Source of the DNA: Caballeronia peredens
Lineage (GTDB): Bacteria > Pseudomonadota > Gammaproteobacteria > Burkholderiales > Burkholderiaceae
Reading direction: 5' to 3'
Assembly (NCBI GenBank): GCA_001544595.2
Contig: FCOH02000002.1
Span: forward strand, 434,001 to 498,000
DNA: 64,000 nt
This document shows positions 58-19,133 of this stretch, in pieces. Under the pieces are notes generated by a model. The model saw only the letters and a program-made list of their open reading frames with translations. It had not been told where the DNA came from and searched no databases. Position 1 is the stretch's first letter, and every line of letters begins with the position of its first letter. The position numbers and the translations under genes were made by a program.

Positions 58-83
58 CATTTGGTGCGGGGACCGGACTCGAA
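58..83. repeat. attL: duplicated 3' end of tRNA-Leu
   Basis: Bases 67-83 are identical to 19054-19070 inside the tRNA-Leu gene (17 bp). The preceding catttggtg also matches; the two copies differ by one missing C in the left copy. This is the direct repeat expected when a tyrosine integrase recombines in the T-arm and acceptor region of a tRNA gene. The flanking sequence further left (1-57) also resembles the sequence beyond the tRNA 3' end at about 19005-19047. Confidence 0.8.
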
Positions 84-137
84 AAATTCCCGCTATCTGT
101 TGTCTGGATAGGGTCTGCGATCTTCGCTTCGTTTACA

Positions 138-157
138 TACCCCCATTTGTACCCCCT
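138..157 (+). promoter_or_regulatory. Putative integrase arm-type sites, left end
   Basis: TACCCCCA (138-145) and TACCCCCT (150-157) repeat 12 bp apart just inside attL. The same octamer occurs twice, 10 bp apart, at the right end (18927-18944). Short direct repeats flanking both att cores are typical arm sites of P4/lambda-type integrases. This is inferred from sequence only. Confidence 0.5.
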
Positions 158-195
158 GAGGGGCGAGGCTGCCCCGCCCCGTGATGCCGATACGA

Positions 196-786
196 TCAGT
201 TGAAGCTCGCAATCAAACTCGCTGCGGCTCGCTTAACCAGATATTGCTGAAGCGTCGCAGCCTCAACGTCGGAAAGAGCGAGTTCAATCTTGCCGCCCCG
301 AATCAGCATCAGCCGACCATCGCTCGCGACGGCGCAAGCAAAGTCCTGTGGTGCGACATTTGTGTCTCGGGCGTTTCCGGCGCTGACGATTGGTTTCGAA
401 TGGTGTCTCGCTGTCCCCTTGCCCCTGCGCCCGGTCGATCGGCGCGCCGGCGGCTTCGCAACATCGAACACGCTGCTTCTGGCAGTCGCCGTCTTGGCGA
501 TCGGCACGACGTTCTTTGCGTCGACGACGCTTTGACGGATGCGCTCCACCGTTTCGGCATCAACTTGCTCGGGCAAGTAATAGGCGCTGACGTGGCGACT
601 GTTTACTACCACACGTTCTGTCAGGATGCGGCCGCTACGCAGGTCCTGCCAGAGAGCCGAAGGCACCGGCTTCGAGGATTGCAGGCCGAGCCGGGTTGCA
701 ATCTCCGCGGAGGTAATGCCAGGCTCTGCCTTGATGAGATCAACCATCGCGGCCTTCCTGCTCTGCGCTTGCTTCGAAGATTTCAT
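196..786 (-). CDS. Putative winged-helix DNA-binding protein of the element
   Basis: This 196-residue protein has an N-terminal region (about residues 10-60) that reads like a helix-turn-helix: GITSAEIATRLGL followed by a charged wing-like stretch. The middle is Arg/Lys/Ala-rich and probably flexible. The C-terminus is a small domain of about 50 residues. It reads leftwards toward attL, divergent from the rest of the left arm, where a repressor or early regulator often sits. GGAG lies about 10 bp before the ATG. A 6-bp GC stem (810-815/823-828) lies in its 5' leader. I recognise no specific family; a role in lysogeny control is inferred from position only. Confidence 0.6.
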   Translation of the reverse strand: MKSSKQAQSRKAAMVDLIKAEPGITSAEIATRLGLQSSKPVPSALWQDLRSGRILTERVVVNSRHVSAYYLPEQVDAETVERIRQSVVDAKNVVPIAKTATARSSVFDVAKPPARRSTGRRGKGTARHHSKPIVSAGNARDTNVAPQDFACAVASDGRLMLIRGGKIELALSDVEAATLQQYLVKRAAASLIASFN

Positions 787-1279
787 GACAGTCTCCAGTG
801 TATTGAGTCCCGGCCAAGCGAAGGCCGGTTGAACAGATTATTTTTTCTGCTCCGGAGGGTCGATGAAATCGCTCCACGCAGACCGCCGCTGTCATCGCGA
901 GAATCAATTTGCGGATGCGGTGTGCACGAGGCGGGTGGGTTGACTGACGCACAGCCGGAACCCGCCATGTGGATTCGCTGGCGGTCGGGCGCTTTCGGGA
1001 GAGTTTTTATACGCCTACGCGCGCGCGCGCACGCGCGATCGCCGTCAGCGGCGAGTCATTAGCATCAGGCGCGACATCGGCGAGTTTTCTTACACGTATA
1101 CGCGTGCGCGCGGGACACATCGTCAATATTTCGACTTGCATCCGCGAGACGCTGGTTCGCCATCAGGGCGCCCTCGGTCTGTGTTAGCGCGGCCTCAGTT
1201 TTGTTGCTGAGAGGGCGCTCAGAAGATTCCGGGCAATTACAATCGTCTGCAAGTTCGCTCAGGCGAGCGACATCAGTCA
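787..1279. other. Divergent regulatory region without a convincing gene
   Basis: The stretch separates the leftward HTH gene from the rightward operon. It holds the stem CCGGCC/GGCCGG (810-815/823-828), an alternating purine-pyrimidine tract at about 1015-1038 (mostly CG and CA steps), and a second similar tract with the imperfect palindrome cacgtatacgcgtg near 1091-1105. Short open frames exist, but none has a ribosome site or a recognisable product. It probably holds divergent promoters and operators. Confidence 0.45.
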
Positions 1280-1336
1280 AACCGCGCCTAGCTCGACGGG
1301 GCGAAAGCCAGGGCCCCTTGCCTGGTTGGCGCGGTT
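1280..1336 (+). promoter_or_regulatory. Structured leader element, copy 1
   Basis: AACCGCGCC (1280-1288) pairs perfectly with GGCGCGGTT (1328-1336) and encloses an inner hairpin CCAGG/CCTGG (1308-1312/1321-1325). The 15-mer ccgcgcctagctcga (1282-1296) recurs exactly at 4252-4266, where it starts a similar fold. Both copies end about 30 bases before an ATG. This suggests a shared cis-acting RNA or operator. I know no family that matches. Confidence 0.45.
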
Positions 1337-1368
1337 CCCCATCCAAGGTTCAGCGTGCAGGGACGCGT

Positions 1369-2681: not shown

Positions 2682-2732
2682 GGTCGATCGCTTTCAATGC
2701 AGCCATGTTCAACGACCTGCCAAGGTTCGCAA

Positions 2733-3011
2733 ATGGCCGCTAAAGCTACCAAGACCCCGCCCACCGACGCTCAGTCCGCCGCGCCGCGCGTCCTCCCGCT
2801 CGACGGATTCACGCGTTGGAGTGATCTCAAGCACTTCGTCCCGCTGAGTCACGAGTCGGTCCGCCAGCGTGAGCTCGCCGGACGCTTCCCAAAGCGTATC
2901 AACCTCGGCTCTGCACGCTGCGTCGCCTGGTCGAACCGCGAGGTTCACAAGTGGCTGGCTGATCCCGTCGGATACCGTGCTCCGACGGCGACTGCTGGCG
3001 AGGCTGCGTAA
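2733..3011 (+). CDS. alpA: AlpA-family phage transcriptional regulator (copy 1)
   Basis: This 92-residue protein has the AlpA signature: GFTRWSDLKHFVPLSHESVRQRE (helix-turn-helix of MerR/AlpA type), then GRFPKRINLGSARCVAWSNREVHKWL. AlpA proteins in P4-like satellites and prophages activate integrase or early genes. The ATG at 2733 is preferred over one at 2697 because caagg lies about 8 bp before it and the conserved part is kept. The gene follows a palindrome array and its stop overlaps the next ATG (TAATG). It is a paralog of the protein at 5177, with about two thirds of core residues identical by eye. Confidence 0.85.
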   Translation: MAAKATKTPPTDAQSAAPRVLPLDGFTRWSDLKHFVPLSHESVRQRELAGRFPKRINLGSARCVAWSNREVHKWLADPVGYRAPTATAGEAA

Positions 3012-3568
3012 TGGCCCGCGCTCACCAACCGATCATCGCAACGAGGGCTAATGGAATGCCCAATGTTGCCGTTAAGAGTGAACGTGCGGAAGCAATCTCT
3101 GCTCGCATAAACCGCTTGACGCGCTCGCGCGTGGACGCCTATTCTTTCACTGTCGCCGAGACAACGGCGACCCGGATTGGCGTCCGGAATAGTTCTCTGG
3201 CGGACAACCGCCGCAGCGCGGTTTTTTTACGTCCGCACACCATGCGCCTTCAATGGTCGGGCCTTGGTGGGGGTGCGCTTGCGCACGCCGGTATCCAGAG
3301 ACGCCGGTACGCCAACCCTGCCTTGTGCTCGGCCACCCCGATTGGCGTCGGGGGCCGGGTTCTTACACCCGTCTCTGGAGGCCGCATCATGCGCCAGTCC
3401 CTGCACGCCCATACCGGGCACGTCAGCCCCGCCATCCTTGAATTCATTGTCCGCGACGCCATCAAGCGCGCCGCACTTGCGCCCTCGCATGCCGCGGCGC
3501 TCGACATTGCTGGCGAAGCCCTTCTTGCCGTCGCACAGATCCTGAGCCGGGAGGTGAGCCATGGCTAA
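3011..3568 (+). CDS. Possible Ash/Icd-like leader reading frame (contains CI/C4-like RNA)
   Basis: An open frame of 185 codons runs from the alpA stop (TAATG) through the structured RNA region to the end of the small gene at 3389. Its YSFTVAETTATRIGVRNS stretch resembles the leader ORF (Ash or Icd-like proteins) that overlaps CI/C4 RNAs in P4- and P1-type phages. An intrinsic terminator (3206-3228) lies inside it, so full-length translation would be conditional. The frame may be partly fortuitous; the independent gene at 3389 is better supported. Confidence 0.35.
   Translation: MARAHQPIIATRANGMPNVAVKSERAEAISARINRLTRSRVDAYSFTVAETTATRIGVRNSSLADNRRSAVFLRPHTMRLQWSGLGGGALAHAGIQRRRYANPALCSATPIGVGGRVLTPVSGGRIMRQSLHAHTGHVSPAILEFIVRDAIKRAALAPSHAAALDIAGEALLAVAQILSREVSHG
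3206..3228 (+). terminator. Intrinsic terminator inside the alpA leader
   Basis: AACCGC (3206-3211) pairs with GCGGTT (3218-3223), followed by a run of seven T. An outer stem gcggac/gtccgc (3200-3205/3231-3236) encloses it. In P4 the CI RNA causes early termination of its own operon leader; a terminator in this place fits that model. Confidence 0.65.
3240..3340 (+). ncRNA. CI/C4-type immunity antisense RNA
   Basis: The sequence matches the general form of the P4 CI and P1 C4 RNAs: tggtcgggc, a GTGCGC/GCGCAC hairpin (3274-3287), a ccggt...ccggt section, then acgccaaccc and ggccacc. ACGCCAA (3309-3315) is complementary to TTGGCGT in two places: in the upstream hairpin (3177-3183) and just downstream (3342-3348). 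That reproduces the seqB/seqA/seqC arrangement by which P4 CI RNA ends transcription of its own operon. Ends are approximate. Identification is by recall of the family pattern, not a covariance search. Confidence 0.7.
3389..3568 (+). CDS. Small element protein of unknown function (59 aa)
   Basis: The ATG at 3389 follows a good ribosome site (tctggagg, 3375-3382) directly after the CI/C4-like RNA, so it is the likely target of that control. The product is short and mostly helical (SPAILEFIVRDAIKRAAL and DIAGEALLAVAQILSRE), without cysteines or a signal peptide. It overlaps the next start by 8 bases, which implies translational coupling. No family recognised. Confidence 0.6.
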   Translation: MRQSLHAHTGHVSPAILEFIVRDAIKRAALAPSHAAALDIAGEALLAVAQILSREVSHG

Positions 3569-4188: not shown

Positions 4189-4251
4189 CTTCACGCGACG
4201 GCGGATGCTCGACATCAATACGGTGCATTCGCCGGCGCCACTTCAAGACAG

Positions 4252-4303
4252 CCGCGCCTAGCTCGAGAAGCAGATACCGGGGTTCCCTACCCGACAGGTG
4301 CGG
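4252..4303 (+). promoter_or_regulatory. Structured leader element, copy 2
   Basis: The 15-mer ccgcgcctagctcga (4252-4266) is identical to 1282-1296. CCGCGCC (4252-4258) pairs with GGTGCGG (4297-4303) with one G-U wobble, where copy 1 has a full Watson-Crick stem. An inner CGGG/CCCG hairpin replaces the CCAGG/CCTGG of copy 1. The element ends 31 bases before the next ATG, against 33 in copy 1. Conserved fold with a changed sequence suggests a real RNA or operator element. Confidence 0.45.
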
Positions 4304-4333
4304 TCCTTATAAGGGATCTTGCGTGAGGGCGCT

Positions 4334-5068: not shown

Positions 5069-5070
5069 CT

Positions 5071-5176: not shown

Positions 5177-5452
5177 ATGGTCACAAAGAACCAATCTGCT
5201 TCCGTCGCGGACGCACAGCCCAAGCCGCAATCGCTCCCGCTCGATGGCTTTACCCGCTGGAACGATCTGAAGCGAATCATTCCGCTCAGCCACGAATCGA
5301 TTCGTCAGCGCGAGTTGAAAGGGCGTTTCCCGAAGCGCGTCCAACTTGGTTCGGCGCGGTGTGTTGCCTGGCCCAATCGCGAGATTCATCGTTGGCTTGC
5401 TGATCCGGCCGGGTATCGTGCGGCGGCACCTAGCGTGGCGGAGGCCGTGTGA
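5177..5452 (+). CDS. alpA: AlpA-family phage transcriptional regulator (copy 2)
   Basis: This 91-residue AlpA-type protein has GFTRWNDLKRIIPLSHESIRQRE and GRFPKRVQLGSARCVAWPNREIHRWL. It is closely similar to the protein at 2733 but has its own upstream repeats. It heads the replication operon (58-aa gene, initiator, DnaB, SSB-like). A GTG start of the next gene overlaps its stop. It may switch on replication while copy 1 controls the immunity operon; that split is inference. Confidence 0.85.
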   Translation: MVTKNQSASVADAQPKPQSLPLDGFTRWNDLKRIIPLSHESIRQRELKGRFPKRVQLGSARCVAWPNREIHRWLADPAGYRAAAPSVAEAV

Positions 5453-5640: not shown

Positions 5641-6516
5641 ATGCCAATCGTCAGGGGCCCGCGGCCTGATCGCGACTTCACCGTCATCCGGAATTCCGTC
5701 ATCAACGACGGCCGGCTGTCGCTCGAAGCGCGATTCATCCTCATCTACCTGCTAAGCAAGCCGGAGACGTGGAGCGTGAACGCGCAAGACCTGATCAACC
5801 AGTCGAAGGCGTCGGCACGACCGTCGGGAAAGACGTCGATTTACGCATCGCTGAAGGAACTCGCGGACCTCGGATATCTGCATCGACGCCGTTTAGCTGC
5901 TGGAGGAATGCAGTACACGGTCTATGAAATTCCGCGAGATGAGGGAAAAGCGGACGCGGACGCCGAGAACAGCCCGCAAACCCTTGCCAGTCATCCACTT
6001 GCCGCAAATCAGGAAGTGGGTACTGAGCCACTTCCCGAAAAGCGGCAAGTGGAAGCCAGTCATCCACTTCCCGAAAAGCCACTTTTGGAAAAGCCACTTT
6101 TGGGTAATCAGACACTAGTAAAGACTGAAGTAGTAGTAAGAAAAGAAAAAGCAGAAAAACCGGATTCGCTTCGCGTTATGGAGAAGAGGAGTCGAGGCAA
6201 GAAACTTCCGCTCCAAGCGTTCATCGCGGGATGCAGAGAGGCAGGCGAAAAGGTAATTCCCGACGCTGACCCGGTCTTCGCATATGCGGACACGATCGGT
6301 TTGCCCTACGACATGGTGTCGCTCTGCTGGAAGGTTTTTCGTGAAAAGCACGTCAACGACGACAGCAAACGATACGTCGATTGGCGAGCCCATTTTCGCA
6401 ACGCGGTTCGAGGCGCCTGGTACGGGCTGTGGCGCATCGATGCCGGCTCGAACGAATACAAGCTCACCACCGCCGGCGAGCAGGCACGACGGATCTACGA
6501 GAGGACAGCAGCATGA
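5641..6516 (+). CDS. Phage replication initiator with internal iterons
   Basis: This 291-residue protein has an N-terminal winged-helix domain (residues 1-100; LSLEARFILIYLLSKPETW and TSIYASLKELADLGYL), a linker at about 118-155 encoded by DNA repeats (SHPL, PLPEK, PLLEK), and a C-terminal domain with YVDWRAHFRNAVRGAWYGLW that resembles phage DnaT/DnaD-like or lambda O-type replication proteins. It should bind the iterons and load the DnaB encoded next (ATGA overlap at 6513). The ATG at 5641 follows a weak site (gaggccg). Confidence 0.75.
   Translation: MPIVRGPRPDRDFTVIRNSVINDGRLSLEARFILIYLLSKPETWSVNAQDLINQSKASARPSGKTSIYASLKELADLGYLHRRRLAAGGMQYTVYEIPRDEGKADADAENSPQTLASHPLAANQEVGTEPLPEKRQVEASHPLPEKPLLEKPLLGNQTLVKTEVVVRKEKAEKPDSLRVMEKRSRGKKLPLQAFIAGCREAGEKVIPDADPVFAYADTIGLPYDMVSLCWKVFREKHVNDDSKRYVDWRAHFRNAVRGAWYGLWRIDAGSNEYKLTTAGEQARRIYERTAA
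5995..6165. other. Putative replication origin inside the initiator gene
   Basis: The hexamer CCACTT occurs at 5995, 6028, 6064, 6079 and 6094 and inverted (AAGTGG) at 6014 and 6047. The first four form two inverted pairs 33 bp apart; the last three are direct repeats at 15-bp steps. An AT-rich stretch follows (about 6105-6160, tagtaaag...agtagtagtaag...aaaagaaaaagc). Iterons plus an adjacent AT-rich region inside the initiator gene is the lambda O/ori layout. Confidence 0.65.
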
Positions 6517-7913
6517 ACGCCCCACACGAATTCAACGAAATCCATGCTCAGGCGCTCGTCGCGGTGGAGATGGAGCAATCCGTTCTCGGCGGCCTGCTGG
6601 TCGACAACGACGCGATCGACCGTATCGGCTCTTTGCGCGGGGAGCACTTTTCGCGCGCGGACCACCGCATCATCTTCGAGTCGATCAAGCGAATGATCGG
6701 CGACGGCGTGACGGCCGACGTTATTACCGTGCTCGAGCAACTTCGGACGATCGGAAAGGAAGACGTCGCCGGCGGCCTGCCTTACCTAAACGCGCTCGCG
6801 CAGAACACGCCGGGCGCAGCGAACATCGCCCGATATGCTGAAGGTGTCGTCGACCGGTGGCGCCTGCGTCAGATGATGGCCGCGGCTGACGAGGTCCGCG
6901 CGGAGGTAATGAACAGGAACGGCGCGAGCGTCGGCGACATCCTCGGCAGTGCACAGGCCAAGTTCGAACGCATGGCGGACACGCGCGGCACGGAGCCACG
7001 CCTGCTTGGGGAGTACTTCGGTGAGCTTGTGCAGGAGCTCGACGCACAATACGCCGGCCGCTCGACGGTCAAGGCAACGCCGACGGGTTACACGGATCTT
7101 GATGCCAAGCTTGACGGCGGCATGTTCGATGGCGATCTTGTCATCGTCGCGGGCCGTCCGTCTATGGGGAAGACGGCCTTCGCAATGGGCATCGCCGAAC
7201 ACGTCTCCTGCCATGCCCCGGCGGTCTTTTTCTCGATGGAAATGGGTGCCCAGCAACTCGCCATGCGTCACGGCGCACGCTCAGGCGGCATTCCGATGGG
7301 CAGATTGAAAGATGGCAAGCGTCTGCATGACGCTGATTGGGCAGGCATCACACGCGCCGCCGAACGTGCTGCAAGCGCGAAGCTTTTCATCGACGATCGC
7401 TCGGGCCTTTCGCTCTTCGAGGTCCAGAACGCCGCGCGCCGCATCAAGCGCCTGCACGGGCTCGGCCTCGTCGTCATCGACTATCTCGGCCTCATGACCG
7501 GCGGCGATGGCGACAACCGCACACAGCAGATCGGCAGCATCACGCGGGGCCTGAAGGGCTTGGCGAAACAGCTCGGCTGCCCGATCGTCCTCCTCGCGCA
7601 GCTCAATCGCGGCCTCACAAACCGGCCGGACAAGCGCCCGAACATGTCGGATTTGCGCGACTCGGGCGAAATCGAGCAGGACGCAGACACGATTCTCTTC
7701 ATCTATCGCGACGAGGTCTATCACGCCGACACGCGGGCGAAGGGCGTCGCAGAAATCATCATCGGCAAGCAGCGTAACGGCGCGCTGGGAAAGGTGGGGC
7801 TGGCGTACACGGCGGAGCTCACGCGATTCGCCGATCTTCCTCCCGGCGCGCTCTGGGAAGACCTCTCCGACCGGCGCTCCAGCTTCCGCCCGCGCGGCGG
7901 CTTCGACGAATAA
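6513..7913 (+). CDS. dnaB: Replicative DNA helicase, DnaB type
   Basis: The ATG at 6513 overlaps the initiator stop. The product has 466 residues. The N-terminal DnaB domain is EQSVLGGLLVDNDAIDRI onwards. The RecA-type core has Walker A GRPSMGKTA (about residues 212-220) and Walker B VVIDYLGLM (about 320-328), with QLNRGLTNRPDKRPNMSDLR downstream, as in bacterial DnaB. Phages that carry their own DnaB load it through their own initiator, bypassing host DnaC/DciA. The gene is full length, so replication looks self-sufficient in helicase. Confidence 0.95.
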   Translation: MNAPHEFNEIHAQALVAVEMEQSVLGGLLVDNDAIDRIGSLRGEHFSRADHRIIFESIKRMIGDGVTADVITVLEQLRTIGKEDVAGGLPYLNALAQNTPGAANIARYAEGVVDRWRLRQMMAAADEVRAEVMNRNGASVGDILGSAQAKFERMADTRGTEPRLLGEYFGELVQELDAQYAGRSTVKATPTGYTDLDAKLDGGMFDGDLVIVAGRPSMGKTAFAMGIAEHVSCHAPAVFFSMEMGAQQLAMRHGARSGGIPMGRLKDGKRLHDADWAGITRAAERAASAKLFIDDRSGLSLFEVQNAARRIKRLHGLGLVVIDYLGLMTGGDGDNRTQQIGSITRGLKGLAKQLGCPIVLLAQLNRGLTNRPDKRPNMSDLRDSGEIEQDADTILFIYRDEVYHADTRAKGVAEIIIGKQRNGALGKVGLAYTAELTRFADLPPGALWEDLSDRRSSFRPRGGFDE

Positions 7914-7928: not shown

Positions 7929-8312
7929 ATGATCGATGCATTGGTGGGCGGAAGGCTGTGGAAACAGGCCGAAGAGCGGCGCAGCCAGAACGGCAATACG
8001 TACGTGCTTGCCAAGGTCCGCGCGGCCGATGGTGAAGGCGAGAGCATGTTCATCAGCGTCATTGCTTTCGACCAAGCGGCGCAGGACGCTCTGCTCGCGC
8101 TCGAGGACGGCGATAGCGTTTCGCTGGCCGGTCCGCTGAAGATCGGGACGTACGTCGGTCGCGAAGGCACCAAGGCGAGCGTCAGCATGACCGCGCAGCG
8201 CGTTTTGACCTCCTACCATGTCCAGCGCAAGCGAAAGGCTGTGGTGGGCTCTGGTGATGCCAGGGAGGCATCCGAGAACTGGTGCGAGGATGCCTTTCCG
8301 GGTGCGATTTAA
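7929..8312 (+). CDS. Single-stranded DNA-binding (OB-fold) protein
   Basis: This 127-residue protein lies 15 bp after dnaB with a gaggtg ribosome site. The pattern LVGGRLWKQAEERRSQNGNTYVLAKVRA...FISVIAFDQAAQDALLALEDGDSVSLAGPL fits an SSB-type OB fold. The C-terminus ends DAFPGAI; it is acidic just before but lacks the canonical DDDIPF tail of SSB. It probably covers single strands during element replication. Confidence 0.75.
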   Translation: MIDALVGGRLWKQAEERRSQNGNTYVLAKVRAADGEGESMFISVIAFDQAAQDALLALEDGDSVSLAGPLKIGTYVGREGTKASVSMTAQRVLTSYHVQRKRKAVVGSGDAREASENWCEDAFPGAI

Positions 8313-8349: not shown

Positions 8350-8781
8350 ATGAGCAGCAGCCACTTCAAAAAAGGCCAGAGCGGTAACCCAGCGGGGAAA
8401 CCGAAAGGGGCGCGCGACAAGCGCACGGCTCTACGCGAACTGCTGCAGCCGCACGCGGCCGATCTTGTGAAAAAGGCCGTTGAACTCGCGAAGGCCGGCG
8501 ATACAACCGCGCTTCGCATCTGCATCGATCGGTGCATCCCGGCGATGAAGGCGAAGGACGAGCCGGTCGAACTGCCCGCGCTGACCGGTTCACTGGCGGA
8601 GCAAGGCGACGCGGTCATGCGTGCGATGGCGGCCGGCGCGATCACGCCGGATCAAGCGCAAGCGGTCATGCAGGTACTGGCGGCACAGGTGAGGATCATC
8701 GAGGCCGACGACCTTGAGAAGCGAATTGCGGCCCTAGAGGGAAAAGAGAATGGCGACCAGCAATCTCCGGGCGCGCGTTGA
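8350..8781 (+). CDS. DUF5681 domain protein, possible small terminase-like
   Basis: This 143-residue protein has the hallmark FKKGQSGNPAGKPKGARDKRTALRE at residues 5-30, then a helical segment with ALRICIDRCIP. DUF5681 proteins are frequent in prophages, often just before terminase large-subunit genes, and are thought to act in packaging or DNA recognition. Here no terminase follows. The last 32 bases overlap the next gene. If packaging-related, it could redirect a helper terminase; that is inference. Confidence 0.75.
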   Translation: MSSSHFKKGQSGNPAGKPKGARDKRTALRELLQPHAADLVKKAVELAKAGDTTALRICIDRCIPAMKAKDEPVELPALTGSLAEQGDAVMRAMAAGAITPDQAQAVMQVLAAQVRIIEADDLEKRIAALEGKENGDQQSPGAR

Positions 8782-9013
8782 ACGTTTGGAGCGTCAGCAA
8801 GGGCCTAGCGCGATAGATCCCTTGATCGTGGTGATTCGCTGTTTCGGCGAGCTAGAGCACGGGGCAGGAATTTCGGTCGACGGTGAGTTTTACGCTTGCC
8901 CGCCGGGGGTAGATGAACATGAGCATAAGAGGGCAGTGGCCCGCGAGGTGAATCCAAATAATTCGCGGACGCTGATTGTTCTGATATGGACCGAACCATC
9001 GGATCTCTTATGA
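8750..9013 (+). CDS. Small phage protein of unknown function (87 aa)
   Basis: The start overlaps DUF5681 by 32 bases, with gagggaaaagag as ribosome site. The N-terminus (NLRARVERLERQQ) is a helical, probably coiled-coil segment often seen at the start of small phage proteins; the rest is a compact domain with FYACPPGVDEHEHKR. An ATGA overlap joins it to the next gene. No function assigned. Confidence 0.65.
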   Translation: MATSNLRARVERLERQQGPSAIDPLIVVIRCFGELEHGAGISVDGEFYACPPGVDEHEHKRAVAREVNPNNSRTLIVLIWTEPSDLL

Positions 9014-9543
9014 GCGGGCCATCACATTCAGCACTTTGGCTTTTGGAGCGACAGAACGCTGACGGCGGAATCGTCGATGATCCGCTCCTCGTCCTTCCTT
9101 TGAGTGACCTCGTCTCGCGTATTCGAGTGTTGGAAGCCAAGCTCGAACGATTCGAGCGCGCAGCGTCGCTATCAAACGCATTGATGTCGTCGCGATCGAT
9201 CCCGGCCCGGCGCATTGGCCGACCTACCGATCCAGATCTACGCGGCAAACAAATTGCGTGGGCGCTCGCATCTGCGCCTGGCGGATCCATCGAACAGTGG
9301 ATCAAGGCGAACCGCATTGGAATGCGACCCATAGGACGAATTCGAGATAGCGCTCATTCGCGGATTCGCACGTTCGTGTTCGCGTCGTTTGATGAGCATG
9401 AGAGGTTGACTGGGAACGCTGTTTCCGTCGGGCGCCGAGAACAGATCACCACAAGACTCAACAATTATGCGAAGGCGGGACGATCTCTTCTCAAGCTAGG
9501 CGTTCCACCGACGCTTCACTGTTTGATCGAAGCGGAGCGCTGA
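9010..9543 (+). CDS. Element protein of unknown function (177 aa)
   Basis: The ATG at 9010 is chosen because it overlaps the preceding stop (ATGA). The protein has a short coiled coil (VSRIRVLEAKLERFER, residues about 37-55) followed by a basic domain with many Arg. It is the last gene before the perfect hairpin at 9554-9582. In an intact podovirus, terminase, portal and capsid genes would be expected hereabouts. Function unknown. Confidence 0.6.
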   Translation: MSGPSHSALWLLERQNADGGIVDDPLLVLPLSDLVSRIRVLEAKLERFERAASLSNALMSSRSIPARRIGRPTDPDLRGKQIAWALASAPGGSIEQWIKANRIGMRPIGRIRDSAHSRIRTFVFASFDEHERLTGNAVSVGRREQITTRLNNYAKAGRSLLKLGVPPTLHCLIEAER

Positions 9544-9553
9544 TTCGCACGAA

Positions 9554-9582
9554 GGCAGAAAATTCGGCCGCTCTTTTCTGCC
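9554..9582 (+). terminator. Perfect 9-bp hairpin between replication and ejection modules
   Basis: GGCAGAAAA (9554-9562) pairs perfectly with TTTTCTGCC (9574-9582) around an 11-base loop. It lies 10 bases after the stop of the previous gene. The T-rich arm is inside the stem, so it is an atypical terminator; a protein-binding site is also possible. Confidence 0.4.
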
Positions 9583-9642
9583 CGGATCAAATTGGAGCGT
9601 CCTCGTAGACTGAATTCATCATCCATCAACGAGGATTTCTTC

Positions 9643-9942
9643 ATGCAAACCATCGAAGAAGCGCGTCAGCAGCAACTGGTCAACATCGTCGAGATGGCCG
9701 GCGCTCGCCTGCGGTCCATGTTCGCCACCATCGTCCAATCGTCCGAACGAGCGGCCGCAGGCCATCAGGTCGAAGCCGATCTTCGCATTGTCGGCGCTGA
9801 CATTGTGCAAATCCATGACTGGATGAGCCATCAATTGGCGGAGGCGATGTCTGACACGCCGCTTGAGTCCGCCTCCGGGGCTGCGCTGATCGTTGCGATG
9901 GGCATTCCTGAGCCGATCGAAATTTCCCACGTCAAACACTAA
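9643..9942 (+). CDS. Small phage protein of unknown function (99 aa)
   Basis: The ATG at 9643 has cgagga 7 bp upstream; an in-frame ATG at 9592 has none. The 99-residue product is mainly helical (EEARQQQLVNIVEMAGARLRS...DIVQIHDWMSHQLAEAM) and acidic. It starts the operon that contains the two large ejection-type proteins and ends 12 bp before their first start. Such small helical proteins often accompany podovirus internal proteins; no family recognised. Confidence 0.6.
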   Translation: MQTIEEARQQQLVNIVEMAGARLRSMFATIVQSSERAAAGHQVEADLRIVGADIVQIHDWMSHQLAEAMSDTPLESASGAALIVAMGIPEPIEISHVKH

Positions 9943-9954
9943 TCGGGAGGGAGC

Positions 9955-10011
9955 ATGGCCGACTCGTCCTATCCATTTGTGGCGCCCCAGTTTCGGGGAA
10001 CGCCTATCTGA
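9955..10011 (+). pseudogene. Detached N-terminus of the ejection protein (frameshift)
   Basis: An ATG at 9955 with an excellent ribosome site (gggaggga) opens MADSSYPFVAPQF and then stops at 10011. The frame of the following large gene is open upstream and reads NAYLIQRQQALANALAQ from 9999, a natural continuation of VAPQF. A lost base in the TTT run at 9991-9993 (or a -1 shift there) would join the two frames. No canonical slippery heptamer is visible, so a mutation or sequencing error is more likely than programmed frameshifting. Confidence 0.6.
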
Positions 10012-10055
10012 TTCAGCGGCAGCAGGCGCTTGCCAATGCCCTCGCACAAAATGCG

Positions 10056-11987
10056 ATGCAGGGGCAGCCACAGCCGCAGATGGTTGGCTCTGGTGGATCG
10101 CAGAACTATCAGGTCATGCCGCATACGTCAGCTCTCGCACCCGTTGCGCAGGTCGCACAAGGATTCTTGGCGCATGCGTTGGCGCAACGCGCGGCGCAAG
10201 GTCAAAATCAACTCGGCCAGCAGCAGATGGACTGGGCGACCGGGGACAACGCGCCGCAACAGCTCGGACTGGGCGCGCTCAGCAACGCACTCGGATCGTC
10301 TGGAGCGCAGCCCCCTCTTCAGCAGCCCCCAGCAGGGCAACCCGGCGCAACAGCCGGGACTGCTGGGGGGTATGACGCCGTTTCTGGGGATGCAGGGCTT
10401 TCTGACCAGTTGAGCCAGCAACCGCGGCAGCAGGGCGCGCTCGCTCCGGGGGGGCCGCTCAATCCGCTCGGGATTCCGACTCGACAGGCCGCGATGTTGT
10501 TCTTCGGCAATCAAGGCAAGTATTGGGATCTGCAGTCGCAAGCGTACAAGCCGGCTGAGATCGTCTCGCAGATTCGCGCCGCCGGAATCGATCCGAACAG
10601 CATGCTCGGCCGGCAAATCGCTCAGCAGTCCCTCGCTAAAGCGAACTACATCGCGCCCATTTCGGCACGTCCGGGCGGCGCGCTGATGATGCCGGACGGT
10701 AGCACGCGTTACACGCTGCCCGCGCCTCAAGCAGGCGGCATGTGGGCCACCAATTCGGATGGCTCGCTGAAGCTCAATCAGGCCGGCCAGCCGTATCAGA
10801 TTGGCATCGGTGGAGCAGCGCAGATCGAGGGTGGCATGATGGCCGCCAAAGCCGCTGGCGAAGGCTCAGTATTGCCGTATTCCGGGTTCGATATGCAAGG
10901 CAACCCACTGCCTGTCACGAACCGCACCGCAGCCGCGACGCAGGCCAATGGCACGCCGCTCCCGCTGCGCAACAACAATCCAGGCGCCGTCTCGCCGGGC
11001 GGTTCAGTCGCGCAATATCCCGACATGCAGACGGGCCTTGCCGCGATGGACAAGAATCTTGCGGGTTACGCCGGTCAGTCCGGAACGGGCACGCTCGGCG
11101 GGGTCATCACGAAGTGGGTCGGCTCGCCACCGAACGCGCCCGCTTATATCAAGGACGTGTCGACGCGCCTCGGCATCGGACCGAACACGCCTGTGGACCT
11201 GACGAATCCGGCTCAACGCCAGGCGATCGCCACGGCCATCATGCTTCACGAGAACGGTCCGTCGAACGTCTTCGCACCGTCGCAGATGGGCCGCGCGTCA
11301 CAGCCGTCGCAGGCTCCGGTGCCGTCGTCACAGCCGACGAGCGGCGCGATCTACGCGCAGCCTCAGCCGGGGTTCAATCAAGGTCAGACGGACCTTCAGA
11401 CCGACCTGACGAAGAAATGGGGGACGCTGAACGAGGCGAATTCGCAAGCGCAGAACACGATCTCGTACCTGCAGAACATCAAGGGCCTTGCAGGTAGGGC
11501 CACGACGGGTCAACAGGCAGATCGGATCAACTATGTGAACGGCCTGCTCGCGCTTGCTGGCAGCGAGAGGGCGAACGACGCCGTGACCGCGAATAACCTG
11601 CTCGACAAGTACAGCAATCAGATCGTCGCCCGGCTCGGTCAGGGCGGCCTCGGCACCGATGCCGCGCGGTCGATTCTCGCCTCGGCCTACCCGAACGCCC
11701 ATATGACCAAGGAAGCTATCAACGAGGCGACGGATAACCTTGTTGGTGCTCAACAGATGACACAGGCGAAGGCACGTCTATTGCAGCCTCTCTACAACGC
11801 GCGGGACACGAAGGCCTACAACGACAAAGAGATGATATTCGATCAGAACGCCGACCCGCGCATCTGGCAGTTCCAGAACATGAATCAGCAGCAGCGGCAG
11901 GCATTCAAGGCCAGCATGACGTCCGACGAGCAGCAGCAGTTCGGAAAACAGATTCGCGCGTTGGTCGGATTGGGGGTACTCAAATGA
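10056..11987 (+). CDS. Podovirus-type ejection/structural protein with transglycosylase-like domain
   Basis: The 643-residue frame from the first in-frame ATG is Gln/Gly/Pro/Ala-rich at the N-terminus. It has a globular domain at about residues 300-405 beginning PLRNNNPGAVSPGGS and ending AIMLHENGPSN, which matches the peptidoglycan-acting structural-protein domain seen in many phages. The rest is helical. The position before a second very large helical protein fits DNA-ejection proteins of podoviruses, which leave the virion and cross the envelope. The true start was probably 9955, now separated by a frameshift. The start at 10056 has no clear ribosome site. Confidence 0.7.
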   Translation: MQGQPQPQMVGSGGSQNYQVMPHTSALAPVAQVAQGFLAHALAQRAAQGQNQLGQQQMDWATGDNAPQQLGLGALSNALGSSGAQPPLQQPPAGQPGATAGTAGGYDAVSGDAGLSDQLSQQPRQQGALAPGGPLNPLGIPTRQAAMLFFGNQGKYWDLQSQAYKPAEIVSQIRAAGIDPNSMLGRQIAQQSLAKANYIAPISARPGGALMMPDGSTRYTLPAPQAGGMWATNSDGSLKLNQAGQPYQIGIGGAAQIEGGMMAAKAAGEGSVLPYSGFDMQGNPLPVTNRTAAATQANGTPLPLRNNNPGAVSPGGSVAQYPDMQTGLAAMDKNLAGYAGQSGTGTLGGVITKWVGSPPNAPAYIKDVSTRLGIGPNTPVDLTNPAQRQAIATAIMLHENGPSNVFAPSQMGRASQPSQAPVPSSQPTSGAIYAQPQPGFNQGQTDLQTDLTKKWGTLNEANSQAQNTISYLQNIKGLAGRATTGQQADRINYVNGLLALAGSERANDAVTANNLLDKYSNQIVARLGQGGLGTDAARSILASAYPNAHMTKEAINEATDNLVGAQQMTQAKARLLQPLYNARDTKAYNDKEMIFDQNADPRIWQFQNMNQQQRQAFKASMTSDEQQQFGKQIRALVGLGVLK

Positions 11988-14062
11988 GCCTCGCTGACGA
12001 TTTCGACTCGATCCAGGTCAAGGGCACGCAGGGCGCGCCCGCGCAAGGCTTGGCTTCGCAATGGGATGCCACGCCCACGACGCCAGTTGCCGCGCCGCAA
12101 TCGCAGACATCGCAGCCTTCGTTCGTGGATCAACTCGGCCGACAACTCGGACTGACCGCGCGCGCGGGCGTGAGCGGCATCACAGCGCTTCCGGCGATGG
12201 TCGGGAATGCTCTGAACTCTGGCGTCAATTTAGGGATTCGTGGTGTGAACGCACTCGGAGCGCATATCCCGGAACTCTCGATGCCTTCCGACGCGATCCA
12301 ACAGGGAATGAATGCGGTCGGCTTGCCACAACCGCAGACGCCGACCGAACGCATTGTTCAAAACGCTGCAGCTGGCATGGCGAGTGTGCCGACCTCGATG
12401 GGGATGGGCGGTGTGCTGTCCCGGTCCGCGTCACCGGTAGCGTCGGCAATCGGAAGCGGGCTCCAGATCTCTCCCGGCATGCAACTGTTCGGTTCGGCTG
12501 GCGCCGGAGCTGGTTCGCAAGGGGCTGCGGAGCTGGGCCTGAATCCCGCATGGCAAGTCGCTGGCAGCGTTCTCGGCGGCGCAACAGGTGTTGGCGCAGG
12601 GTCTGCATTGACCGCAACGGCACGCGCATTTGGCAACGTGGCCGGCCGGCTTACCGCGCCGCCGATGAGTCCTTCTGCTGCGGCAACTAAGGCTGATATC
12701 GGTGTCGATCGCGCCGTGTCGGACCTCGGCCCGCAAGGCGGCGCACTCTTTACCCCGACCGAGATCGATCCCTTGAAGCAACAGGTCGCGGCGCAGATTC
12801 AACAGAATCCGGGCGTGAGTCCGGTTGCTGCGGTGCGCTCGCAAGACTTCCGGAATCTCGGCATGCAGCCGACGCTCGGGCAGATCACGCGCGATCCGAT
12901 GCAATATGCGCAGGAAATGAATATTCGAGGCATCCCGGAGGTGGGGGCCCCTCTTACGCAGCGTTTCAACACGCAGAATACGCAGCTTCAACAGAACTTG
13001 TTCGGGCTCGCCGGGCGGCCGTCCGATGCCTACACGGCCGGGACGCAGCTTCAGACGACGCTGAAATCCATCGACGACCAGATGGCATCGAACGTCCGGG
13101 CCGCGTATGACGCAGCTCGCGCATCGAGCGGCAAGAACCTAGACGTTCCTCTCTCGGGCGTCGCGCAGGACTATGCGCAGGTTCTAAACGACTTCGGCGA
13201 CAAGGTGCCGAGCGGCGTTCGGAACAACTTCAACCAGCTCGGGCTGATGGGCGGCACGCAGCAGAAGACATTCACCATCGAGAACGCCGAAAACCTGCTG
13301 AAGGTCATCAACGCGAACCAGAGCAACGATCCGGCGACGAATGCGGCCCTCGCGACGCTACGAACAAGCGTGAAGAACGCGGTTCTTTCTGCAGATGACA
13401 AAGGAGGCGTTTTCGCGCCGGCCCGTCAACTCGCTGCACAGCGATTCGCCCTGCAGGATTCGGTACCCGCTTTGGAAGCTGCCTCGAACGGCTCTGTCGC
13501 GCCGGATGACTTTGTGCGTCGCTTTGTGCTCAATGGCAAGACGAACGATGTGCTGTCGCTCGCGGATTTACTGAAGCAACACAATCAGTCGAATACGCTT
13601 CAGGAGATGCGCAATCAGGTTGGCGGTCAACTGTCCCAGGCGGGGTTTGGCGCAAACCCGGCCGGCGACGCGAAATTTGGGCCGGTGCCCTATGCGAACG
13701 CGCTACGCAATATGGGCGACACGAAGCTTGGCGCCTTCTACTCGCCCAACGAGATCGCCCAACTGCACACTATCGGGCGAGTCGGCGGCTACATGAACAG
13801 CTTCCCGAGTGCGGCGCCGGTTAATACGTCGAACACGGCCTCGGCTCTCGCTTCAGTCTTGGGCACAGGTGTGAAGAAGATCCCGTACGTTGGGCCGCTA
13901 ATCCAAGGCGCGCAGAACCGGATGTTCGTCACGCGGGCGCTTGCCGCAGCGCTGAGCAATGCGCCTGCGACTCCGACGCCGAGTTATCCGATACCGACTG
14001 CGGCTCTAGCGAATGCTCTTGCGCGCGCGCAGGCGACGAATGGCTCCAACGGCTCCCCGTAA
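11984..14062 (+). CDS. Large podovirus-type DNA ejection / internal virion protein
   Basis: The ATG overlaps the preceding stop (ATGA). The product has 692 residues. The N-terminal third is Gly/Ala-rich with amphipathic or membrane-active stretches (GVSGITALPAMVGNALNSGV; AGAGAGSQGAAELGL). The remainder is long helical with many Gln/Asn. This composition and pairing is typical of P22-like internal proteins that form the trans-envelope channel. It has no enzymatic motif. It ends the structural operon; a terminator follows at 14139. Confidence 0.7.
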   Translation: MSLADDFDSIQVKGTQGAPAQGLASQWDATPTTPVAAPQSQTSQPSFVDQLGRQLGLTARAGVSGITALPAMVGNALNSGVNLGIRGVNALGAHIPELSMPSDAIQQGMNAVGLPQPQTPTERIVQNAAAGMASVPTSMGMGGVLSRSASPVASAIGSGLQISPGMQLFGSAGAGAGSQGAAELGLNPAWQVAGSVLGGATGVGAGSALTATARAFGNVAGRLTAPPMSPSAAATKADIGVDRAVSDLGPQGGALFTPTEIDPLKQQVAAQIQQNPGVSPVAAVRSQDFRNLGMQPTLGQITRDPMQYAQEMNIRGIPEVGAPLTQRFNTQNTQLQQNLFGLAGRPSDAYTAGTQLQTTLKSIDDQMASNVRAAYDAARASSGKNLDVPLSGVAQDYAQVLNDFGDKVPSGVRNNFNQLGLMGGTQQKTFTIENAENLLKVINANQSNDPATNAALATLRTSVKNAVLSADDKGGVFAPARQLAAQRFALQDSVPALEAASNGSVAPDDFVRRFVLNGKTNDVLSLADLLKQHNQSNTLQEMRNQVGGQLSQAGFGANPAGDAKFGPVPYANALRNMGDTKLGAFYSPNEIAQLHTIGRVGGYMNSFPSAAPVNTSNTASALASVLGTGVKKIPYVGPLIQGAQNRMFVTRALAAALSNAPATPTPSYPIPTAALANALARAQATNGSNGSP

Positions 14063-14138
14063 TGCGTGATAGATGGCGATCGAGCCAATCGGAGCCAGAG
14101 CGACGATCGCGAGATGCAGGTTCATGCAGTTCTCCAGC

Positions 14139-14160
14139 CCCCGCCGCGCGCGGGGTTTTT
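14139..14160 (+). terminator. Terminator after the ejection operon
   Basis: CCCCGC (14139-14144) pairs with GCGGGG (14150-14155), followed by TTTTT. It lies 77 bases after the stop of the large ejection gene, inside an unlikely open frame that continues to 14526. Confidence 0.8.
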
Positions 14161-14367
14161 CGTTATGGGCATCGGACCATGCAGTTTACGGCCATTGTCT
14201 GCGCGCTTCTCTTAATTCCCGCCGATTGTGAGGCCAGCGTCTCGGAGCGCGCCGGCTTCATGTCGACAGGGGTTCATGGTTTCCACCGATCAAGCCGTTT
14301 CCGCTATGTGCCGACATCGCGTCTGTCGCTGATGCCAGCGGCGCGATCGCTCAACAGGGGAGAATTC

Positions 14368-14526
14368 ATGAAGAGAATCATCGCCGCGCTAATCTGCGCG
14401 TCTTTCATCGTTCCAGCTATCGCGGAGGCGCGTGGCGGCCACTATGCCGGCGGTCACGGCTCATCGCACAAGGGCGGCCACTACAAAAACGCGCGCACGG
14501 GCGACCACTACGAGAAGCGGCACTGA
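14368..14526 (+). CDS. Small secreted Gly/His-rich protein
   Basis: The ATG at 14368 has a strong ribosome site (cagggga). The 52-residue product starts with a signal peptide (MKRIIAALICASFIVPAIAEA) followed by a short basic Gly/His/Lys-rich mature part (GGHYAGGHGSSHKGGHYKN). It is likely exported. Similar tiny secreted proteins occur in Burkholderia genomes; function unknown. A longer frame from 14179 in the same phase also begins with a hydrophobic stretch, but its ribosome site is weak. It is a probable accessory gene of the element. Confidence 0.65.
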   Translation: MKRIIAALICASFIVPAIAEARGGHYAGGHGSSHKGGHYKNARTGDHYEKRH

Positions 14527-14875
14527 ACTCGCGCCGCGGCGGCACGCGCCGAAGCGTTTCTCTGATCGAAATTCAAAAAATCAGAGATCTGTGTTGTCAG
14601 TTAGAGAGCATATGGCGAAGATACGCGGGAGCGCAGTACATCGCGCTCGCCCTCTCAAATTTTGGCCCGTCCTCGCGACGGGCTTTTCTTTGGATTGCAG
14701 CGCCGTCGCCGTGACATCGAGATAAATGCGTCTGCATGTTCGGGCTCACCGGGTGTTCGCACTGCCCGGATAGACTGGCACGTCAGTGCGTAGCCCCCAG
14801 GCGCCTGACAACCGGAGAAAAATTGCAGTGGTACGATGCGCGAATCCGTGAATCGCCGCTCCGAGGGAGGGACCA
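14527..14875 (+). other. Gene-free stretch with a strong terminator at 14665-14690
   Basis: No convincing gene. GCCCGTC (14665-14671) pairs with GACGGGC (14677-14683), followed by TTTTCTTT. A short transcript or the end of the preceding unit is implied. The 190 bases after it lead to the next gene and probably contain its promoter. Confidence 0.6.
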
Positions 14876-16705: not shown

Positions 16706-16764
16706 TCCTTGCACGGAGGTGCAGGTAGCAGCTATCGTGGTCTCCTTCCTTCGAAGAGGTCGCG

Positions 16765-17061: not shown

Positions 17062-17098
17062 CGCCAGCGTTGAGCGATCGGCCGCGAACCTCGCAGAA

Positions 17099-17617: not shown

Positions 17618-17653
17618 GCAGATTTTGCTGTGTTGATCAAATGGCACGCGAGA

Positions 17654-18871
17654 TCACGCCGTGCCGCTTCTCAGCTCGATGACTTCCGCGCCAGCCTTCA
17701 GGCGGTCGAGGTAGTCCGCCCACTCTTGCATCATGACGCGGCGGTCTTTGATGAACTTCGTCCGGTTGTATGCACGCCCAAGATTGTCGGGCACCGTGTG
17801 CGCGAGCTGGTGCTCGATGACCTCCGGCTTTTGACCGAGCTCCTCATGCAGGATCGTCCGCGCCATCGCGCGAAAGCCATGCCCGGTAATCTCCGTGCGC
17901 GTGTCGTAGCCCAGGCGCCGCAGCGCGGCGTTCACGGCCGCATCGCTCATTGGACGCTTGTTCGAACGGGCGCCGGGGAACACGTATTGTCCTGAGCCCG
18001 TGAGGGCGTAGATCTCGCGCAGGACCGCGACGGCCTGCGTCGACAGCGGGACGAGGTGATCGGTCTTCGTCTTCGTTACGAGGTAGCGCCATTCGCCCTT
18101 GTCGAGATCGAACTGCGTCCATTCCGCTTTTCGCAGCTCGCCGGGCCGAACGAACAGCATCGGCGCCAGCTTGAGCGCGCATTGCACTGGGAATGTGCCT
18201 TGGAAGCCGTCGAATGCGCGCATCATCTCGCCAACCTTCAAGGGATCGGTGATTGCCGCGAAGTGCGTAGTCTGAGCGGGCGGAATCGCGTCAACCAGAT
18301 CGCGCGCCGGGTCCGCTTTGCAATACCCCTCCTTGATCGCATACCGGAACACGCGACTGATCTCGCTTCGCACACGGTGCGCCGTGAAGCGCGCGCCGCG
18401 GCCGTCGATGCGCTTGAGGACCGACAGTATCTCTGGCGCGTCGATCTCGCTGATAGGGCGCTTCCCGAGCCAAGGAAACACATCGCTCTTGAACCGAGCC
18501 ATGGTCTTGTCGTACTGGCCGATTTGCACGACGGTCTTGCGTTCTTCCATCCAGCCCTTGGCGACCACCTCGAACGAGTTCGCCGCAGCAATGCGCAGAG
18601 CGTGCCGTCCTGCCTTCTTCGCTGCGCTCGGATCGCCGCCGTCTGCTAACAGCTCGCGCGCCTCATCGCGCTTCTTGCGTGCTGCCGCAAGCGACACGTC
18701 GGGGTAGACACCCAAGGCGAGCAGCTTCTCCTTGCCCGCCACTCGGTATTTCAGGCGCCAATACCGCTGTCCCGCCGGTGTGATCAGCAAGAAAAGGCCG
18801 CCACCATCGAACAGTTTCTGCGCCTTGTCGGTGGGCTTCGTGTTCCGAACAGCGGTATCAGTCAGTGGCAT
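17654..18871 (-). CDS. int: Tyrosine integrase, P4 type with DUF4102 arm-binding domain
   Basis: The ATG at 18871 (MPLTDTAVRN) gives 405 residues, the usual length; the longer frame upstream is not needed. The N-terminal arm-binding domain (residues 1-85) has DGGGLFLLITPAGQRYWRLKYR and ALGVYPDVSLAAAR. The catalytic domain shows R in FVRPGELRKAEW, K in VTKTKTDHLVPL, HGFRAMART (HxxR), HQLAH and the nucleophile Y in GRAYNRTKF. It lies next to attR in tRNA-Leu, reading away from it. An inverted TACCCCCA lies 3 bases upstream of its start, so Int may repress its own gene. Confidence 0.95.
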   Translation of the reverse strand: MPLTDTAVRNTKPTDKAQKLFDGGGLFLLITPAGQRYWRLKYRVAGKEKLLALGVYPDVSLAAARKKRDEARELLADGGDPSAAKKAGRHALRIAAANSFEVVAKGWMEERKTVVQIGQYDKTMARFKSDVFPWLGKRPISEIDAPEILSVLKRIDGRGARFTAHRVRSEISRVFRYAIKEGYCKADPARDLVDAIPPAQTTHFAAITDPLKVGEMMRAFDGFQGTFPVQCALKLAPMLFVRPGELRKAEWTQFDLDKGEWRYLVTKTKTDHLVPLSTQAVAVLREIYALTGSGQYVFPGARSNKRPMSDAAVNAALRRLGYDTRTEITGHGFRAMARTILHEELGQKPEVIEHQLAHTVPDNLGRAYNRTKFIKDRRVMMQEWADYLDRLKAGAEVIELRSGTA

Positions 18872-18873
18872 GT

Positions 18874-18944
18874 TGGGGGTACCCGGGAGCGTAAGAGCGG
18901 GGCAGGGCTGCAGATACCCCGAACGATACCCCCAGCTACCCCCA
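18874..18944. promoter_or_regulatory. Putative integrase arm-type sites, right end
   Basis: TACCCCCA occurs at 18927-18934 and 18937-18944, one helical turn apart, and inverted (TGGGGGTA) at 18874-18881; TACCCCG at 18915-18921 is a weaker copy. They match the left-end sites at 138-157. The inverted copy covers the region just before the integrase start codon. Confidence 0.55.
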
Positions 18945-18975
18945 GTTGTCACTAGTGGAACCTAGTGAACTTTGG

Positions 18976-19012
18976 GAATAAAAAACCCCGCGAGACTTTA
19001 TCAGGCGGGGTT
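18976..19012 (-). terminator. Terminator for tRNA-Leu (element-supplied)
   Basis: AACCCCGC (18984-18991) pairs with GCGGGGTT (19005-19012). Read on the minus strand, the stem is followed by TTTTTTATT. It lies 35 bases past the tRNA 3' end, so the element brought its own terminator and restored tRNA transcription. It is also usable against plus-strand read-through. Confidence 0.75.
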
Positions 19013-19047
19013 CTTTTGTGAAACGTGGTTTTCGCTGGGACTTCATT

Positions 19048-19133
19048 TGGTGCCGGGGACCGGACTCGAACCGGCAAGCCGTTAGGCGGCGGATTTTAAG
19101 TCCGCTATGTTTACCAATTTCATCACCCCGGCA
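19048..19133 (-). tRNA. leuZ: tRNA-Leu (UAA anticodon)
   Basis: The minus strand reads TGCCGGGGTGATG, a D-arm, the anticodon stem-loop GGACTTAAAATCC with TAA, a long variable arm typical of class II tRNAs, TTCGAGTCC as T-loop, and an encoded CCA end (19048-19050). The acceptor stem TGCCGGG/CCCGGCA pairs fully. The gene is intact and its 3' part (19054-19070) is the att core. The gene symbol is by analogy with the E. coli tRNA of this anticodon. Confidence 0.9.

Follow-up and report, generated by a model that had tools for sequence, protein, structure and literature searches.

EcCIMP1, a 19,963-bp phage-inducible chromosomal island (PICI) of Escherichia coli MP1, is integrated in tRNA-Thr and has two AlpA genes (PMC11773190). 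Its circularization was detected with the helper podovirus Kapi1 present, and Kapi1 transduces it (PMC11773190). PLE satellites of Vibrio cholerae encode tail proteins (TMP and BhuB) that replace helper parts in satellite particles (PMC12987554). Staphylococcus aureus pathogenicity islands (SaPIs) use a small terminase (TerS) strategy, in which a satellite-encoded protein sets packaging specificity (PMC6893505). Here, we analyzed a stretch of 64,000 nucleotides from Caballeronia peredens (contig FCOH02000002.1, positions 434,001 to 498,000), called the window below. An element at positions 67–19070 of the window, integrated at a tRNA-Leu gene and delimited by a 17-bp direct repeat, encodes two large ejection-type proteins, ej1 and ej2. 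We put at about 72% the probability that it is an integrated satellite of a podovirus, one whose own ejection proteins are incorporated into the capsids of the helper. The names ej1, ej2, p9592, p8986, p8750, and p14062 were coined in this analysis; G labels denote genomes, and L labels denote fetched stretches or loci.

Both ej1 and ej2 matched proteins of podoviruses, with best segments 53–81% identical, which agrees with the sequence-only reading of this DNA, a preceding note that had claimed two large ejection-type proteins. The labels gp7-, gp14-, gp16-, and gp20-position denote places in what we take to be the P22 gene order; ej1 and ej2 were placed at the gp20 and gp16 positions. In viral contigs, the homologues of ej1 and ej2 sit together behind tail genes, in the order tail protein, amidase-family protein, GNAT protein, virion structural protein (phrog_6121), a 197-aa protein (in some contigs), ej1, and ej2. 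These contigs (L008 type) gave no match to 11 reference head and packaging proteins. EBPR podovirus 1, with annotated TerS, large terminase (TerL), portal, scaffold, and coat, has an ej2 homologue (46.5% over residues 264–609). The L008/L027–L029-type podoviruses and EBPR podovirus 1 thus resemble the element in having ej1 and/or ej2 homologues, theirs behind tail genes; they differ in that they are phages, the L008 type with tail genes and EBPR podovirus 1 with annotated TerL, portal, and coat, and have no satellite backbone in common with the element.

Profile and structure comparisons were also made. Four SLT-class proteins were combined into a profile, with which an ej2 profile aligned across 573 columns (probability 100, E = 1.7e-48). 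One of the four came from L032, which is a phage region matching Terminase_6N, P22_portal, and Phage_capsid_3. ej1 contains a muralytic-like segment that varies among its relatives. Against solved structures, this segment matched a chain named Gp29 (E = 1e-8), two further ej1 matches were weak, and ej2 had none. The predicted structure of ej2 had a mean predicted local distance difference test score (pLDDT) of 52.7, with a better core. Many of its viral Foldseek matches had no name; the named ones included LT_GEWL, SLT, and a single "injection protein" entry. The PDB gave nothing at E 0.001. As a single-sequence query against viral contigs, ej1 gave no confirmed match, and ej2 gave 91 pattern matches in genome contigs, one of which, in Paraburkholderia madseniana, was confirmed. 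For ej1 and ej2, the name ejection protein has support but no proof.

No terminase, portal, or capsid family was found among the 20 window open reading frames (ORFs) scanned with Pfam and PHROG, as the sequence-only reading had stated. A segment of ej1 matched a tape-measure family and an "endolysin" PHROG family that is classed with head and packaging. Testing 59 element ORFs of at least 100 aa against the 11 reference proteins, with limited sensitivity, also gave no match, and neither did 891 ORFs in 17 satellite loci. In a positive control, the reference proteins matched ORFs in only 3 of 10 podovirus stretches, so absence judged by this test alone is weak. From 12 compact elements, 127 ORFs of at least 110 aa were called and 80 were scanned; the remaining 47 were mostly genes already recognized as integrase, replication, DUF5681, or cargo genes, and included some short ORFs. 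The matches listed for the 80 ORFs (at E up to 1e-4, 25 of 37 Pfam families; at E up to 1e-20, 25 of 26 PHROGs) contained no TerL, portal, or major capsid family; Bbp16 was matched by one ORF, and tail-fibre families by some. The set of TerL, portal, coat, and tail genes that marks a podovirus prophage was not found in the element. Phage records held no near DNA match to it.

The backbone of the element is of the satellite type. The integrase, both AlpA proteins, DnaB, SSB, and the DUF5681 protein all exceeded Pfam cut-offs, and the initiator matched PHROG initiators, so that these calls of the sequence-only reading stood. Its P4-like immunity RNA proved to be a C4 RNA, a type presumably linked to P4 immunity; the int-alpA, isrK, and C4 RNAs all exceeded Rfam gathering scores. 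The excisionase it had named was not recovered as a dedicated gene in the window, where only AlpA-type proteins matched "excisionase and transcriptional regulator" models. As in Gram-negative PICIs, there are an integrase, AlpA, a replication gene, a tRNA or gene-end site, and no full virion set. The PICI arrangement with AlpA downstream of the integrase is absent; the integrase gene adjoins tRNA-Leu(taa) at the right end, and the AlpA genes start at 2697 and 5177. The element shares an integrase and AlpA with P4-like satellites (PMC8628076), and C4 RNA as well, but differs by DnaB-based replication and virion-type proteins. No psu, delta, epsilon, or alpha Pfam family was found among the 20 scanned ORFs (E up to 0.05; some short ORFs lay outside the scan), and the element does not belong to the P4-like family proper.

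EcCIMP1, the key comparison, also carries ejection-block genes, which contradicts the earlier description of the element as unlike known satellites. Its RefSeq annotation names neither terminase nor portal nor coat; for the cargo, it lists a DUF2824 protein, one protein of 225 aa, a phage DNA ejection protein, and a lytic transglycosylase protein of 906 aa. These four proteins were 83, 57, 26, and 24% identical to Kapi1 proteins, respectively, and the block includes a Kapi1_056 homologue; of the other Kapi1 head and tail proteins tested, none was found in the EcCIMP1 stretch. In Kapi1 and E. coli HS, the counterparts come after the tail needle gene, and several of them bear the annotation DNA transfer protein. 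E. coli HS, considered as a further satellite case, proved to be a full prophage. EcCIMP1 and the window element are both tRNA-integrated and about 19–20 kb long, with related integrases (E = 7e-97), C4 and isrK RNAs, two AlpA genes, ejection-block genes, and no TerL, portal, or coat annotated. EcCIMP1 encodes a TOPRIM/DUF927 protein, and its ejection block comprises four genes, DUF2824 and a gp7-position gene among them, whereas the window has initiator, DnaB, SSB, DUF5681, and two large ejection-type genes. No relation between their ejection proteins was found with phmmer, and hhalign gave a probability of about 1%. A similar element in E. coli EC931 has only gp20- and gp16-position genes, as in the window. 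At least 80% of the 15.3-kb EcCIMP1 stretch from integrase to ejection block was present in 66 of 5426 E. coli genomes. PLE satellites likewise encode virion parts, those of the window being putative; they differ in their contractile-tailed helper, ICP1, and in supplying tail proteins rather than internal ejection proteins (PMC12987554).

A second compact element was found in another species. Among 58 genomes of the genus, the genome of the window and G017 (97%) have ej2, and G036 has a C-terminal stub of it. The G017 element lies at another site, beside a putative mnmE-like gene, with its own integrase and with a primase and a helicase in place of DnaB. It has in common with the window SSB, p8986, p9592, ej1, ej2, and the small protein after ej2. 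DNA identity was 88.7% over 9553–14721, ranging from 73 to 99% in 250-base steps. The ratios of nonsynonymous to synonymous substitution rates (dN/dS) were 0.108 for ej1 (643 codons), 0.074 for ej2 (692 codons), and 0.11 for p9592, a substitution pattern that shows purifying selection on the p9592-ej1-ej2 cassette. The same cassette at a different site supports the satellite reading. Attachment repeats were found neither at the four elements beside the mnmE-like gene nor at G251. AH14b, a satellite phage of Pseudomonas, resembles G017 in that its primase and helicase-like genes are separate, and it shares with the window an integrase, AlpA, and the lack of a terminase (PMC4936722). The gene it has in common with its helper encodes a tail assembly protein I homologue, not an ejection protein, and none of the AH14b proteins was detected in the capsid (PMC4936722).

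Other compact elements carry different cargo. The ej2 model matched in 9 of 398 family genomes (window, G017, G036, G305, G218, G233, G243, G242, and G246). G218 and G233 had terminase, portal, and capsid matches, and G243 had a capsid match; G242 and G246 were phage-like by ORF layout only, and G242 also matched one reference head protein. p9592 had 27 matches, three of them convincing (its own, G017, and G305); those at E 0.0017–0.0097 in 24 genomes were treated as chance. G305 holds two compact elements. G305a has a C4 RNA, a 14-bp repeat at tRNA-Ser, a DUF5906 protein, a p9592-like protein, a SET-domain protein, DUF5681, and, as cargo, a gp7-position protein and an SLT protein. G305b has a C4 RNA, a 13-bp repeat at tRNA-Leu(caa), DUF5681, a SET protein, a gp7-position protein, and an integrase 78% identical to that of the window. 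The gp7-position proteins matched ORFs of podovirus regions L032–L035.

The DUF5681 model matched 15 of 398 family genomes, and 12 of these neighbourhoods were examined, the window included (G021, G355, and G311 were left out). Ejection-type genes were present in five: the window, G275, G219, G305b, and G055. The cargo is a short ej1-like ORF and a 698-aa protein in G275, a 645-aa protein with SLT and a 708-aa protein in G219, and one large protein related to an L035 ORF in G055; the borders of the G219 and G055 elements were not set. The 698-aa and 708-aa proteins matched each other, not ej2. Two more neighbourhoods have Dit-like and tail-fibre genes, G112 (L106:7696-9749) by Pfam and PHROG and G236 (L107) by similarity to G112. 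In the other five, G080, G251, G264, G326, and G030, DUF5681 was present, and neither an ejection pair nor other cargo of these kinds was seen, in G264 and G326 as judged with the query set of this analysis only.

We propose the following mechanism for the satellite reading. Lytic development of the helper would lead to excision of the satellite from tRNA-Leu, and the satellite would replicate with its own initiator, DnaB, and SSB. It would use the TerL, portal, coat, and tail of the helper, and DUF5681 might steer packaging as a TerS-like protein. ej1 and ej2 would be built into the helper procapsid, replacing the helper versions or beside them, and the satellite particles would inject DNA via these proteins. 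The likeliest benefit would be entry into helper-prophage cells whose superinfection exclusion acts on helper ejection proteins. Because the satellite needs helper lysogens as recipients, which likely express the exclusion of the helper, divergent ejection proteins could help.

Hybrids of P22 bear on this mechanism. The ejection proteins of P22 are gp7, gp20, and gp16, and P22 virions were functional with the full set of three from each of four relatives (PMC10883804). Particles with only gp16 or only gp20 of Sf6 were non-infectious, whereas those with both functioned (PMC10883804). SieA escape maps to gp16 and gp20, and the HK620 ejection set weakened SieA exclusion, with about 10% plating (PMC10883804). 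As reported, foreign ejection proteins can thus run in the capsid of another phage and sometimes alter its sensitivity to exclusion, and by analogy a weakening of the HK620 type suggests a benefit for a satellite. The pairing result fits the window, G017, EcCIMP1, EC931, and G219.

The element could also be a decayed podovirus prophage, in which a deletion from terminase to tail left ej1 and ej2 behind; the ej1 frameshift and the identity of ej1 and ej2 to podovirus proteins would be consistent with this. The frameshift claimed at 9991 was found in the assembly by comparison with the intact G017 gene, but it is local. The sequence-only reading had also pointed to tight ATGA couplings around the gap as a sign against recent decay. 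Start/stop overlaps do exist at 8750, 8986, 11984, and 14062; ATGA occurs only at 11984, and the overlaps at 8750 and 8986, closest to the proposed gap, are about 30 bases each. A recent deletion is unlikely, given that G017, from another species, has a compact element with the p9592-ej1-ej2 cassette (dN/dS of about 0.1) despite its different site and replication genes. In seven podovirus stretches (incomplete genomes), only ej1, ej2, and, in one stretch, a distant integrase were matched; dnaB, SSB, DUF5681, p8986, p9592, and p14062 had no match. Independent compact elements bear other ejection-type proteins. A deletion-derived prophage was ruled out as the leading explanation by the G017 cassette, its dN/dS, and the backbone unmatched in podovirus stretches, and we consider decay quite improbable.

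The cargo might instead act against the helper, its proteins competing with those of the helper and lowering the infectivity of helper particles rather than aiding satellite entry. The single-protein Sf6 hybrids, made but non-infectious, imply that one satellite protein on its own could have a dominant-negative effect, and the sets in G305a, G305b, and G055 are incomplete. The window, G017, EcCIMP1, EC931, and G219, however, have at least two adjoining large ejection-position genes, the type of configuration that worked in the P22 hybrids as reported, and the muralytic domains suggest action during entry; interference is therefore unlikely. A role in packaging or head morphogenesis, altering capsid size or DNA packaging, was suggested for EcCIMP1_017-019 by the authors of EcCIMP1, who described these proteins as similar to DNA transfer proteins (PMC11773190), and the DUF5681 gene adjoins the cargo. 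The position of the Kapi1 and E. coli HS counterparts downstream of the tail needle gene, the annotation of several as DNA transfer proteins, and the location of ej2 relatives downstream of tail genes all argue otherwise, and we give this role very little weight.

Several observations weigh against a satellite that supplies its own ejection proteins. Three of the four foreign ejection sets did not escape SieA (PMC10883804), and transduction of EcCIMP1 by Kapi1 occurs at a very low rate (PMC11773190). No sequence or profile relation of ej1 and ej2 to P22-type gp20 and gp16 was detectable, so the term "ejection" rests on position, the muralytic-like segment, SLT-class podovirus homology, and low-confidence fold matches. 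The one-base frameshift near 9991, a site through which the G017 gene is open, may impair the window copy of ej1; it could still be an assembly error. The ejection pair is not universal. G305a has a gp7-position gene and one large gene, G305b a gp7-position gene only, and G055 one large gene, and these incomplete sets do not fit the pairing result; in G275, the large protein is accompanied by no more than a short ej1-like ORF. G017 has no DUF5681. No P22-type portal gene was found in the genome of the window, in G017, or in G036, indicating no resident helper of that kind.

A TerS-like role of DUF5681 is possible by analogy with SaPIs, which are alike in encoding a packaging-specificity protein. 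A model from ten DUF5681 proteins, run on ORFs of 22 loci, matched only Kc259 1466-1996 (1.1e-17) and PVA1 1699-2112 (2.5e-17) at E up to 0.1. The PVA1 ORF extends into the terminase gene (from 2105), and the Kc259 ORF is separated from TerL by one gene. Against this role, no DUF5681 was found in G017, G036, or five viral records including the L008 type. The search of viral contigs gave 85 pattern matches and no confirmed one. The single-sequence structure model had a mean pLDDT of 52, too poor for use. At class level, 10 of 274 genomes matched, the window included, and 6 of the 9 other loci were examined. G542 and G523 had an integrase match, G542 also DnaB; G584 and G453 had little; G553 and G649 showed no match other than DUF5681, next to which is a large ORF read as putative primase-like.

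The features of the element are listed in Table 1.

Table 1. Features of the element, in window coordinates
Feature	Position	Strand	Evidence or remark
Left attachment repeat, 17 bp	67..83		Identical to 19054-19070
int-alpA RNA	1281..1348	+	RF02996, 61.7 bits
AlpA 1	2697..3011	+	PF05930 above cut-off
isrK RNA	3152..3228	+	RF01394, 54.3 bits
C4 antisense RNA	3249..3340	+	RF01695, 62.9 bits
AlpA 2	5177..5452	+	PF05930 above cut-off
Replication initiator	5641..6516	+	phrog_4707, 1.6e-16; PHROG only
DnaB helicase	6513..7913	+	PF03796, PF00772
SSB	7929..8312	+	PF00436
DUF5681 protein, candidate small-terminase-like packaging protein	8350..8781	+	PF18932
p8750, small protein	8750..9013	+	Common to G275 and G305b elements
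p8986	8986..9543	+	Common to G017 element, 75.5% over 147 aa
p9592	9643..9942	+	Common to G017 and G305 elements
ej1, ejection-type protein, muralytic-like segment	9955..11987	+	Frameshifted near 9991, open from 10056
ej2, ejection-type protein	11984..14062	+	63-81% to podovirus proteins; profile match to podovirus SLT-class proteins
p14062, small protein after ej2	14062..14526	+	C-terminal part 14368-14526 conserved
P4-type tyrosine integrase, likely start nearer 18871	17654..18952	-	Pfam PF13356, PF22022, PF00589
tRNA-Leu(taa), integration site	19048..19132	-	ARAGORN, Rfam
Right attachment repeat, 17 bp	19054..19070		Within tRNA-Leu

Further features were noted in and around the element. A second, sub-threshold int-alpA RNA match lies at 4251-4315, upstream of the gene at 4319-5068. 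PADLOC gave no match on 10 window ORFs. The segment 14368-14526 encodes a Gly/His-rich small protein with a putative signal-like start, also found in the G017, G219, and G055 stretches; G219 and G055 share it though their cargo differs. About 95–270 bp left of the window start, adjoining the left repeat, is a remnant of another integrase (G000:C35:433729-433905; L009:19729-19905), which probably reflects an earlier element at the same tRNA-Leu site.

Similar observations were made in the other compact elements. A conserved protein of about 120–155 aa is encoded in six of them (G017, G036, G275, G080, G236, and G055; e.g., L016:5486-5953). A PAPS-reductase-domain protein is encoded close downstream of DUF5681 in G275 (L099:10294-11127) and G080, and the G080 element has putative transposase-like ORFs to its left and right. 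L036:13354-14232 and L080:10441-11322 encode related proteins, one with a SET-domain match, that adjoin the gp7-position genes in both G305 elements; an ORF of podovirus L034 is related to these SET-type proteins, and G030 has a short SET-protein-like ORF. A Betaproteobacteria toxic small RNA (L041:9125-9188) lies in the chromosome near the G036 element.

We tentatively propose a widespread class of satellites with a P4- or PICI-type core, often DUF5681, and an exchangeable, helper-matched entry cassette that would open cells closed to helper particles. Such a cassette would consist of ejection proteins for short-tailed helpers and of Dit-like and tail-fibre genes for others, as in G112 and G236. 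The cells opened would be above all helper lysogens under superinfection exclusion, which are the next hosts the satellite needs. Full-text literature searches, which covered few subscription papers, found no paper in which ejection proteins encoded by a satellite are described as parts of the virion. Podovirus ejection-type genes, with no terminase, portal, or capsid found, occur in compact elements both of the family and of E. coli, and one of these elements has been shown to be mobile. If these proteins enter particles, they would be a second, unrelated route to chimeric satellite virions, after PLE, and EcCIMP1_017-019 would gain a new reading. The finding raises a testable question, whether satellites carry ejection proteins to pass the superinfection exclusion of their own helpers.

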